Shown in pieces: positions 1,627-20,249 of a DNA stretch of 64,000 bases. The notes beneath the pieces were generated by a model, which searched no databases, was not told where the DNA came from, and worked only from the letters and a program-made list of their open reading frames with translations. Made by a program: the position numbers and the translations under genes. The DNA is from Sporolactobacillus laevolacticus DSM 442. Lineage in GTDB: Bacteria; Bacillota; Bacilli; Bacillales; Sporolactobacillaceae. The stretch is taken from assembly GCF_000497245.1 (NCBI RefSeq), contig NZ_AWTC01000003.1, positions 1,688 through 65,687 of the forward strand, read 5' to 3'. Each line of letters opens with the position of its first letter. The first letter of the stretch is position 1.

Positions 1627-2685
1627 ATGGCAAATTACAGTATTCACGCGGGACATAATGCAAATGTCCCAGGCGCACAGGGATATATCAGAGAAGAAGT
1701 TATTGATCGACAGATTAAGGACGCAACGATCAAGTATCTTCGTGCAGCCGGTCAAACGGTATACGACGATACGGATGAGCAGGGCAAGACGCAGAACGAA
1801 AATCTCTCATCAATTGTTCGAAAGATAAATGCGCACAGTGGTCTTGCTCTTGCGGTATCGATTCATTTGAACGCTGGCGGCGGAGCAGGAATCGAAGTCT
1901 ATCAATACGACAGTAAAACTGATACAGTCGCAGCTCGGGTGTTGAATAAGATCTACGCGGTAACGCGCCTGCGAAATCGCGGCCAAAAAAAGAATCAAAG
2001 TCTGTATGTGCTCCGTCATTCGAAACCACCGGCGATCCTTATTGAATGCGGGTTTGTCGATACAAAAACGGATGCGGAGATTGTTACAGCTAAGACGGAT
2101 GTAATCGGCAAGGCGATTGCTGAAGGTATTCTGGGCAAAGACATCAACAAAGAAAATCAGTCGAGTCAGCCATCCAAATCAGCATCAGTAAAACCTGTAC
2201 CATCAAGAACTCCTCTAAATAGATCAGACATTCTATTCAAAAAAAGTGATAAAGGTTTTGCTGTGAGAACTTTGCAGCAAGATCTGATTAAAGCGGGTTA
2301 CAGTGTTGGAAAATCAGGAGCGGATGGCGTGTTTGGACCAGCCACTGAAAATGCTGTTCGAGTGCTTCAGAAGGACTACAAGCTATTAGTGGACGGGATT
2401 GTTGGCGTTGAAACAAGAGCTGCTCTGTCAAAAGCGCTGGAAAAAAAGAAGAAACAGCCAAAACCGCCCGATTCTGCGATCGCTCCATACCCTGAAACCT
2501 TAATAAAACGGGGCAGTAGCGGAAAAGGTGTTGAGCGGATCCAGCGCGTACTGTCCATTCATGTTGATGGTATTTTCGGAGCAAAAACGGAGGCAGCTGT
2601 TAAAGCGTATCAAAAACGCCACAATCTGACTGCGGACGGTATTGTTGGCCCTCAGACATGGATTTCAATGTTTAAAAAAAGCTAG
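1627..2685 (+). CDS. N-acetylmuramoyl-L-alanine amidase with two peptidoglycan-binding domains
   Basis: Zinc amidase that cuts the bond between N-acetylmuramic acid and L-alanine in peptidoglycan. Residues 1-170 are an Amidase_3 domain: His10 (HAGH), a Glu near 23, His80 (SIHLNAGGG) as likely zinc ligands and catalytic Glu140 (LIECGFVD). Two PG_binding_1 repeats follow at about 205-272 and 293-351, each with the DG(V/I)FG and DGIVG signatures; the second is shorter. There is no signal peptide, which matches CwlC, the mother-cell lysis amidase of B. subtilis, and many phage endolysins; with no phage genes around I favour a sporulation role, but this is inference. AAAGGAG stands 11 nt before ATG 1627. 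Confidence 0.85.
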   Translation: MANYSIHAGHNANVPGAQGYIREEVIDRQIKDATIKYLRAAGQTVYDDTDEQGKTQNENLSSIVRKINAHSGLALAVSIHLNAGGGAGIEVYQYDSKTDTVAARVLNKIYAVTRLRNRGQKKNQSLYVLRHSKPPAILIECGFVDTKTDAEIVTAKTDVIGKAIAEGILGKDINKENQSSQPSKSASVKPVPSRTPLNRSDILFKKSDKGFAVRTLQQDLIKAGYSVGKSGADGVFGPATENAVRVLQKDYKLLVDGIVGVETRAALSKALEKKKKQPKPPDSAIAPYPETLIKRGSSGKGVERIQRVLSIHVDGIFGAKTEAAVKAYQKRHNLTADGIVGPQTWISMFKKS

Positions 2686-2911
2686 GATAACACATTTGCA
2701 ATAAGATAAAACATGATGATCAAAAATATGCTGGATTTTCGCCTTCTATAAAATTCTAGTTAGCGACAATTAGGCATGATTTAGGCTATTTTTTGTTGCA
2801 GCGTGAATAAAAGGGATAAATAAACTGTTGCTGGAGAAAATAATTCGCTTGATGTTCTATTAGAGGAAAGTTATTAATCGTCGCGGGAAATGCGAGTTCT
2901 TGCAAAGATGA
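2686..2911. other. Intergenic region, nothing recognised
   Basis: AT-rich sequence between the amidase and the broken 3' end of the coiled-coil gene. A weak TAGC/GCTA stem followed by TTTTTT near 2761-2800 may terminate the amidase transcript. No ORF with a ribosome site was seen. Confidence 0.3.
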
Positions 2912-3053
2912 TTACTTAACACGTTTCATATGACGAATTTCGGTTTCTTGTTCGATTGAGCGCAGAGCAAGTGTCTCAAGGATTTTGTCTTGACGCTGCT
3001 GGCTGGCAATTAGTAAGTTTTGATTTTCAGCAAGAAGCGTGAGCTGTTCAGAG
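2912..3053 (-). pseudogene. Displaced 3' end of the coiled-coil gene
   Basis: If one copy of the 32-bp duplication at 3054-3117 is removed, the reading frame of the upstream coiled-coil gene runs on without a stop for 46 more codons, ending at TAA 2912-2914. The added tail reads SEQLTLLAENQNLL, then IASQQRQDKILETLALRSIE and EQETEIRHMKRVK. Its heptad-like, Glu/Gln-rich character matches the rest of the protein, so this was very likely coding until the duplication. In the present sequence it is out of frame and lacks its own start. Confidence 0.75.
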
Positions 3054-3117
3054 TTTTTGACCACTTGATCGGTAATTACATTTAGTTTTTGACCACTTGA
3101 TCGGTAATTACATTTAG
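3054..3117. repeat. Perfect 32-bp tandem duplication inside a coding region
   Basis: Two exact 32-bp copies (3054-3085 and 3086-3117) head to tail, followed by the first five bases of a third. Because 32 is not a multiple of three, the second copy shifts the minus-strand frame and creates TAA at 3082-3084. Confidence 0.95.
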
Positions 3118-3501
3118 TTTTTGATCGATACGTTCAAACTTCTGATTGACTTGATCAAGTCTCTGATCGATGGCAACGATTTTTTGGTCAACTTGATCAA
3201 GTCTCTGATCGATGGCAACGAATTTCTTGTCAACTTGATCAAGTCTCTGATCGATGGCAACGATTTTTTTGTCGACTTGATCAAATCTCTGATCGATGGC
3301 AACGAATTTCTTGTCAACTTGATCAAATCTCTGATCGATGGCAACGAATTTCTTGTCAACTTGATCAAATCTTTGGTCAATGGCAACGAATTTCTGGTCA
3401 ATGAGGTCAAATTTTTTATAACTCTCATTTTTAAATTCTACAAGATTTTTCCCAAGGTCATCCAATTTGTCGACGATGCTTCTTAAAAGTTCTTCGCTCA
3501 T
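3082..3501 (-). CDS. Coiled-coil protein built of 14-residue repeats, truncated by a tandem duplication
   Basis: Cytosolic coiled-coil protein of unknown function, 139 residues as it stands and 185 if the duplication is collapsed. Residues 38-121 are six copies of a 14-residue unit (FVAIDQRFDQVDKK), two heptads each with F/I, I, F/L and V at a and d positions, so a long parallel coil is expected. No signal peptide or membrane segment is seen. The better start is ATG 3501, 9 nt after GGAG; ATG 3510 abuts the ribosome site. The C-terminal 46 residues are lost through the frameshift described for 3054-3117. The gene is isolated. Short repetitive bacterial proteins of this kind occur in phages and as structural adaptors; none can be named here. 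Confidence 0.75.
   Translation of the reverse strand: MSEELLRSIVDKLDDLGKNLVEFKNESYKKFDLIDQKFVAIDQRFDQVDKKFVAIDQRFDQVDKKFVAIDQRFDQVDKKIVAIDQRLDQVDKKFVAIDQRLDQVDQKIVAIDQRLDQVNQKFERIDQKLNVITDQVVKN
3139..3390. repeat. Six 42-bp tandem repeats encoding the coiled coil
   Basis: Six near-identical 42-bp units, each encoding 14 residues on the minus strand and rich in TTGATCAA and CTGATCGATGG motifs. Units are all in frame, so gain or loss of one would only change coil length by two heptads. Confidence 0.9.
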
Positions 3502-3715
3502 TACATTCATCTCCTTTTCTTTTTAGTATAACAGGAATCATCAAATTTTTTGACTATCTTTTCATGAGAAGGGCTAAATTGAAACATCAAAAAATTTAGT
3601 CCGGATGAATTTTTGGCAAAAACAACCATTGAAAGGCGAAGATATATATAATTAGTTAAATAAAATACGTATTGTTTTCAACTAAAAAAGAACATGTATC
3701 TTTGGAGCGATAAAA

Positions 3716-4456
3716 ATGGAGTATCTCATTAAATTTATTTATGCTTTTCTCCTTCCGCCCGGTTTATTTGTGACGCTTCTTGCAGCACTCGCCTTTTGGA
3801 TGTTTCGAAAAAAACAACGGTTTTGTTATGTATTCGGTGGGTTAACGCTATTCATGTATCTAGCTTTTATTCCTTTAACAGGCATCTTGCTTGTTCATCC
3901 ACTTGAAAACCATTACCTGCCTCCGGATCATCCAGAAGGTGATGTAATTGTTATGCTTGGCGGCGGGGCAACTTTGGGTACTCCGGATATGAATGGCGAA
4001 GGACAGCTCTCGGGTGATGCAGCGAACCGCCTGCTGACTACCTTTCGTTTATACAAATTAACCAAATTGCCCATTATATTATCCGGTGGGAAGGTCTATC
4101 CGGACAGTGGAGTTGAAGCTGAAATTGGCAGAAGGCAACTTGTGGCACTTGGTGTTCCGGAAAATAAGGTATTCATAGAAAATAAAAGTATTACAACGAG
4201 AACAAATGCACTGAATACAAAGAAAATCTTGGTCACGCATCATTTCAAGATGCCGATTTTGGTGACCTCTGCCTTTCATATGCCTCGCGCGGTGATGATC
4301 TTCAAGAAAATTGGAATTGACGTTACCCCTTATCCTACGGACTATTTAGTGAGCAAGAAGCTTGCCTTGTACCCTGGGCAATTTGTTCCATCTAGTGGTG
4401 GTATCGCGTTTACAGCATTAAAAGAATACGTAGGAATGCTTGCTTCAGCTTTCTAA
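3716..4456 (+). CDS. YdcF/ElyC-type DUF218 membrane protein
   Basis: Membrane-anchored protein of the YdcF/SanA/ElyC (DUF218) family, some members of which affect envelope integrity and lipid-carrier metabolism; the reaction is not established. Residues 5-30 and 37-62 form two hydrophobic helices, followed by the DUF218 core: DVIVMLGGGA, ILSGGKVYPDSGVEAEIGRR, ENKSITTRTNA and PILVTSAFHMPRAV. The 246-residue length and the two N-terminal helices match ElyC rather than the single-domain YdcF. ATG 3716 is preceded by GGAGCG. A strong terminator follows, so the gene is monocistronic. Confidence 0.8.
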   Translation: MEYLIKFIYAFLLPPGLFVTLLAALAFWMFRKKQRFCYVFGGLTLFMYLAFIPLTGILLVHPLENHYLPPDHPEGDVIVMLGGGATLGTPDMNGEGQLSGDAANRLLTTFRLYKLTKLPIILSGGKVYPDSGVEAEIGRRQLVALGVPENKVFIENKSITTRTNALNTKKILVTHHFKMPILVTSAFHMPRAVMIFKKIGIDVTPYPTDYLVSKKLALYPGQFVPSSGGIAFTALKEYVGMLASAF

Positions 4457-20201: not shown

Positions 20202-20212
20202 AAAAATAGCAA

Positions 20213-20248
20213 TAAATAAAATGATAAATAAAATGATAAATAAAATGA
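20213..20248. repeat. Three 12-bp tandem repeats
   Basis: ATAAATAAAATG is repeated three times directly after alsD, before the terminator. Probably a replication-slippage product in AT-rich spacer. Confidence 0.8.
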
Positions 20249-20249
20249 T

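Follow-up and report, generated by a model that had tools for sequence, protein, structure and literature searches.

A 32-bp Tandem Duplication of Probable Microhomology-Mediated Origin Breaks a Coiled-Coil Gene of a Bacilli Family in Sporolactobacillus laevolacticus

Introduction

Tandem duplications mediated by short stretches of microhomology have been described (PMC13207564), and in Escherichia coli tandem repeats of 101 bp often undergo deletion by a route independent of RecA (PMC8378479). Spontaneous reversible duplications are reported for the capsule genes of pneumococci (Waite et al., 2001, 2003, cited in PMC4243769 and PMC4022640), where such duplications in the capsule operon are described for capsule loss (PMC4243769). 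Variation in repeat length is reported in bacteria both for promoter repeats, with copy-number variants found within isogenic populations (PMC12817950), and for serine-aspartate repeat surface proteins (PMC3324548).

The locus analyzed here lies in a stretch of 64,000 nucleotides from Sporolactobacillus laevolacticus DSM 442 (hereafter, the window). It brings two kinds of repeats together in one gene: a 32-bp tandem duplication that breaks the reading frame and a coiled-coil rod composed of in-frame 42-bp units. The gene is thus divided into a head, which precedes the break, and a tail, which follows it in another frame.

Results

The 32-bp Array and the Frame of the Head

The genome is a draft of 3.59 Mb in 32 contigs, and the window belongs to contig 3. 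At positions 3052–3124 (minus strand) TRF, run on the 64-kb window, revealed an array of period 32 with 2.3 copies and 100% matches, and a search for perfect arrays returned the same 73 bp. Copy 1 occupies positions 3124–3093, copy 2 positions 3092–3061, and a third, partial copy of 9 bases positions 3060–3052; the homology common to both copies amounts to 41 bp. The unit is bounded by an exact 9-bp direct repeat, TCAAAAACT, a putative microhomology located at 3116–3124, 3084–3092 and 3052–3060 on the minus strand. A perfect array of 73 bp is no chance match.

Since 32 is not divisible by three, the head frame stops in copy 2, at a TAA (3082–3084, minus strand) made by the duplication. The head ORF (3082–3501, minus strand) encodes the N-cap and the coiled-coil rod, 139 aa in total. 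A longer product of 142 aa would start at 3510, but the ATG at 3501 is the likelier start since AGGAG, by eye a likely ribosome-binding site (3511–3515, minus strand), is found 9 nt upstream of it. Thus, the exact 32-bp tandem duplication described in the earlier note was recovered, and its second copy does close the frame, as had been stated there.

The search for perfect arrays (period 10–400, at least two full copies) covered the window and 20 stretches of 20 kb (400 kb), and in these 464 kb only four arrays were found. Two of them, of 32 and 42 bp, are both located in the head gene, and the other two have a period of 12 bp, so that 32 bp is the sole period not divisible by three. One of the 12-bp arrays (3.2 copies) lies in the window at 20212–20249, where it overlaps an 85-codon ORF on the minus strand. 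Promoter-like sites at 2600–3800 numbered 3 against 4.0 expected, and terminator-like sites 1 against 0.8 expected.

The Out-of-Frame Tail

The tail (2912–3064, minus strand) corresponds to the conserved C-cap, VVKNSEQ...RSIEQETEIRHMKRVK. It consists of 50 codons counted from GTG 3064, translates to VVKNSEQLTLLAENQNLLIASQQRQDKILETLALRSIEQETEIRHMKRVK and contains no further stop or frameshift. Since 46 of these codons lie beyond the VVKN common to the head, with the end at 2912, the lengths of 139 and 185 residues predicted earlier for the two states are correct.

When the tail alone was used as a query, matches were obtained in 6 of the 15 genomes of the genus, including the own genome and a remnant in G004 whose open frame spans 42 codons. 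Identity to the tail was 66% in G005, 57% in S. vineae DSM 21990 (G014) and 66% in S. shoreae BK92 (G007), while the match in G008 was weak. The pS/pN values (Nei-Gojobori) were 0.85/0.25 against G005 and 0.75/0.27 against S. vineae; pS is saturated, and these values count by their direction alone. They indicate purifying selection on the tail before the break, and region 2912–3064 is a genuine conserved protein end. The concern, raised beforehand, that the tail might lack conservation at the protein level therefore does not apply: it is kept in other species under purifying selection.

The Junction in Sporolactobacillus Relatives

Head and tail are joined in one frame, with no duplication, in S. 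shoreae BK92 (L030/L092), S. vineae (L086), G005 (L023) and strain THM7-7 (L087/L091/L096). The intact form was also found in Bacillaceae bacterium Marseille-Q3522. The window N-cap, MSEELLRSIVDKL, has the counterparts MDESLLKQILDKL in G005, MSDELLKQIVDKL in S. vineae and NDDLLKQIVDKL in S. shoreae. All three relatives aligned at the junction (G005, G014 and G007, one genome per species) have one copy there, and by eye the identical pair of 9-bp sites is absent from the corresponding positions in each of them. A 101-bp DNA probe spanning the junction gave a full-length match in the own genome only, among the 15 genomes of the genus, the runner-up being 47 bp at 81% in G005. Thus, the possibility that all relatives carry the duplication does not hold as far as other species are concerned, the relatives examined being free of it.

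The gene of S. shoreae BK92 is a likely ortholog, as judged from partial synteny. On one flank it shares with the window the CBS gene and three other genes, while the other flank differs, the DUF218 gene and the transporter genes of the window being absent there. A search with the head (query P0001) was rejected as evidence of orthology: it matched 14 of the 15 genomes of the genus, largely because of generic coiled-coil repeats, and missed this likely ortholog; the tail search was used instead.

The Rod and Its Repeat Units

The rod (3149–3401, minus strand) is composed of six in-frame 42-bp units, each encoding 14 aa or two heptads (TRF: period 42, 6.0 copies, 93% matches), and a stretch of 98 bp within it (3275–3372) is perfect. 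The hydrophobic period of the window protein is 3.51, and none of 1000 shuffles reached its power at 3.5. The rod of S. shoreae is built differently, of 33-bp (11-residue) units as against 42 bp in the window, and this difference in unit length is firm. The best hydrophobic period of the S. shoreae protein, taken whole with its caps, is 3.63 as against 3.51; this value falls between the plain helix (3.6, power 2.38) and the hendecad (3.67, power 1.92), and the term hendecad-like is tentative for this rod. Coil geometry may therefore have changed between the two likely orthologs, while their caps are similar. The view that the 42-bp units form a second, frame-preserving repeat level is supported, and rods vary between relatives.

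It should be added that Sporolactobacillus has a second coiled-coil family (L008, L009, L010, L011 and L018) with a similar variable-rod design and other caps. Near the start these read ..SDFHQLFE or SEFHQLFE..TDTRK.., and toward the end ..RIGNLETAQ or ETSQ...

A Bacilli-Wide Family with Conserved Caps

The window gene belongs to a Bacilli-wide family, defined in this analysis, in which conserved N- and C-caps enclose a tandem-repeat coiled-coil rod of varying unit. Its N-cap conforms to MS-[DE]-[DE]-LL-x-x-I-x-D-K-L, a motif replaced by other N-caps in more distant members, and its rod is an in-frame array (42 bp x 6.0). The C-cap QDKILExLAxRSLEQExxIRxLKR is present as well, but because of the duplication it is out of frame with the rest. 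The window gene is thus a broken family member. An intact paralogue of B type (L039) is located in the same genome.

With a C-cap profile (A2), matches were obtained in 12 of 26 genomes at the family level and in 59 of 398 drawn from the class; these counts include the own genome and weak matches. A closer profile (A3) revealed 31 loci among genomes of named species, the window's own genome not being among them, from Sporolactobacillus to Aneurinibacillus, Neobacillus, Paenibacillus, Alicyclobacillus, Shouchella and others. The C-cap is common to the members and the N-cap is shared among close relatives, while the rods differ.

In total, 69 distinct frames were recognized by the C-cap pattern (loci L036–L116, not curated singly; L053 and L073 fall outside the pattern). 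Tandem arrays were present in 39 of the 68 frames other than the window. Their main periods were 21 and 42 bp (12 frames each), 63 and 84 bp (four each), 99 and 126 bp (two each), and 60, 33 and 8 bp (one each). The main period was therefore a multiple of three in 38 of 39 frames, the exception being the 8-bp array of Bacillus niameyensis (L110). A weak additional row, with a period of 23 and copies 54% alike, was recorded in one frame whose main period is 42 (L087, strain THM7-7).

A wider C-cap pattern was used to scan 72 distinct C-cap places (L004–L116, the window included as L022), each with 900 bases upstream. Only in the window was the cap junction found to hold a perfect array that breaks the frame. 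Other rows with a period not divisible by three were the 8-bp array of L110 (read as 16); an 11-bp array in L104, at a distance of 873 bases from where the scanned stretch ends; and many rows in L080 derived from a single uniform run of 100 bases, 792 bases from that end, which we took as a gap of N. The array of B. niameyensis (L110, 3860–3908) is a perfect 8-bp array of 6.1 copies that ends at the ATG leading into the C-cap frame and is located downstream of apparent CRISPR repeats (by eye); it is a classical octamer slippage candidate.

Decayed Family Members

Frame-broken or remnant copies recur in the family. Five of them (L103, L105, L106, L107 and L108) are among the 31 loci of profile A3, and searches of genomes added L053, L054, L066 and L073. 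Head and tail lie in different frames in L054 (G005), L105 (a MAG) and L106; the latter, from Shouchella clausii, differs from L107 of Shouchella tritolerans by 1 base over 1,093. A perfect array was present in none of the nine decayed copies, which therefore decayed by other changes, and duplication is not a general route of decay in the family. Recurrence of broken copies shows that loss is common and points to ordinary decay. That the gene is lost repeatedly elsewhere is no proof, however, that it is dispensable in the window species.

Function, Neighbors and Mobility

The searched libraries (Pfam, NCBIfam, PHROG and PADLOC) name no function. Among the best 25 of 58 Pfam matches of the head, SOAR, a generic coiled coil, was the one model above its cut-off, at the margin (25.9 versus 25). 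In NCBIfam, the best 25 of 36 matches all stayed below the cut-off. The matches in both libraries were mostly coiled-coil stretches. The tail had no Pfam match and one NCBIfam match far below the cut-off. Relatives L012 and L007 score above the thresholds of a small number of Pfam models for generic coiled coils, e.g., NPV_P10. PADLOC gave matches to coiled-coil regions within large defence proteins, along with HTH models that recognized two XRE neighbors. A search of PDB sequences with the C-cap profile gave no matches up to E = 1, and the AlphaFold2 model of the intact protein from S. shoreae consists of one helix (residues 2–168, pLDDT 94.8, pTM 0.43) without a cap fold. As a guess, the joined protein could be a cytosolic oligomerising spacer with binding caps, in which case loss of the C-cap would inactivate it. 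Among the matches listed in a narrow literature search, which is no proof of absence, no title dealt with this coiled-coil family.

The window gene is flanked by genes for an Amidase_3/PG-binding protein and a DUF218 protein. When up to two of the longest upstream ORFs per view were surveyed in 36 locus views (34 distinct places), no general functional partner was found. In five views a Cro/C1-type HTH gene was directly upstream of, or overlapped, the coiled-coil gene (L028 7371–7868; L088 3320–3838; L090 3320–3838; L097 3399–3827; L100 3424–3840); the window has no such neighbor. These genes are possible operon partners and weakly suggest that, in those species, the coiled-coil protein acts as a partner of a DNA-binding regulator.

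PHROG 5553 (114 aa), a phage-derived family of unassigned function, matches relatives of the window gene. Residues 76–162 of the B-type relative L012, comprising rod and C-cap, align with profile positions 26–112 (E 3e-17). In the window, by contrast, the tail alone was unmatched, and the match of the head is one of the rod. Phage searches gave no match for the window tail or for the THM7-7 protein (L096), and plasmid searches none for the L085 protein or for window DNA; an origin from a mobile element was rejected on these grounds, and the family could still be mobile on occasion. A putative viral contig of IMG/VR (L084/L116) carries a relative between apparent exonuclease and integrase genes (by eye).

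Discussion

We consider it quite probable that a recent, lineage-specific tandem duplication mediated by microhomology broke a gene of a probably dispensable Bacilli family. Two TCAAAAACT sites, which may have arisen by chance in the window lineage and are situated 32 bp apart at the junction of rod and C-cap, would have mispaired during replication, and the segment between them would have been copied twice. Translation would then end in the second copy, and the protein would lose its conserved 46-residue C-cap. Elsewhere in the family, rods change by in-frame units and members are often lost. The exact 9-bp repeat at the bounds of the duplicated unit is a feature of microhomology duplications, and the one copy seen in three of three aligned Sporolactobacillus relatives represents the expected single-copy ancestral state. 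The duplication is probably recent, as indicated by the 100% identity of its copies and its absence from other species. An undamaged tail is also what one would expect of an allele that is frequently restored.

The array is probably unstable and the frameshift allele reversible in principle, and a population containing both one-copy and two-copy molecules is plausible. An unselected polymorphism, in which a culture holds both states at frequencies driven by mutation and the assembled state is one of the two, is compatible with the duplication event proposed above, and we put its chances slightly short of even. The deletions between 101-bp repeats in E. coli and the copy-number variants of promoter repeats, both introduced above, speak for it. 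Against it, recombination is rarer between short repeats than between long ones.

It is far less probable that the array is a selected contingency switch, which often gains or loses a 32-bp copy while the short and long proteins serve as alternative states. In favor of such a switch are the exact head-to-tail arrangement of the copies, their 41 bp of homology and a conserved tail free of further damage, and the reversible pneumococcal duplications offer a precedent. Yet the three relatives compared lack the 9-bp microhomology, none of the 71 other C-cap places has a frame-breaking junction array, and the recurrence of frame-broken or remnant copies argues for ordinary decay. Relatives of a phase-variable gene would be expected to keep the repeat tract at the locus, but such conservation was seen neither in the three relatives nor in the 72 C-cap places. 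Typical phase-variable products are surface-exposed, while the protein studied here has, by eye, no signal peptide or membrane segment. An evolved on/off switch is therefore unsupported, and over a selected switch we favor a frameshift of recent date that may revert and that affects a gene which is probably dispensable.

A related idea, to which we give just as little credence, is slippage variation at two levels: in-frame units would rebuild the rod, perhaps as far as a change from heptad to hendecad-like geometry between the likely orthologs, and the frame-breaking junction duplication would toggle the C-cap in the window species. Should both states coexist and matter, the locus would represent slippage switching at two levels in a lactic acid bacterium that forms spores.

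An assembly artefact, with a single copy in the true genome, is likewise very improbable. The assembly is a draft of 32 contigs, and short perfect repeats are error-prone regions; however, an array of 73 bp with 41 bp of homology fits within ordinary read lengths, and assemblers tend to collapse such repeats rather than expand them. Least credible of all is the existence of two products, whether a head protein with a separately translated C-cap or a ribosomal frameshift, for although GTG 3064 opens the tail frame 17 nt after the head stop, by eye it is preceded by no ribosome-binding site, no obvious slippery sequence was noticed, and relatives encode a single joined protein.

Compared with the systems described so far, the microhomology-mediated duplication that we favor for the window is a mutation of an already known kind. 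As in the known microhomology duplications, which are unstable, a segment between short direct repeats is duplicated and a premature stop results; the window differs in that it is bacterial and that the event is inferred from sequence. With the pneumococcal capsule duplications, as they are presented in the citing reports, it has in common that a potentially reversible duplication is located within an ORF. For the capsule genes both reversion and a phenotype are reported, whereas the window offers an uncharacterised coiled-coil gene with the duplication seen in one genome. The number of units changes in the window family as it does in the reported promoter and serine-aspartate repeats; here, however, the rod varies between conserved caps and across species only, and the 32-bp array breaks the frame. 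Possibly the family itself, with conserved caps around a rod rebuilt from different units and a coil geometry that may differ between orthologs, will prove the more useful subject. The window adds to the known cases what appears to be a clean instance, found in nature, of a gene broken by a tandem duplication with microhomology at its bounds, in a family that otherwise varies its rods in frame.
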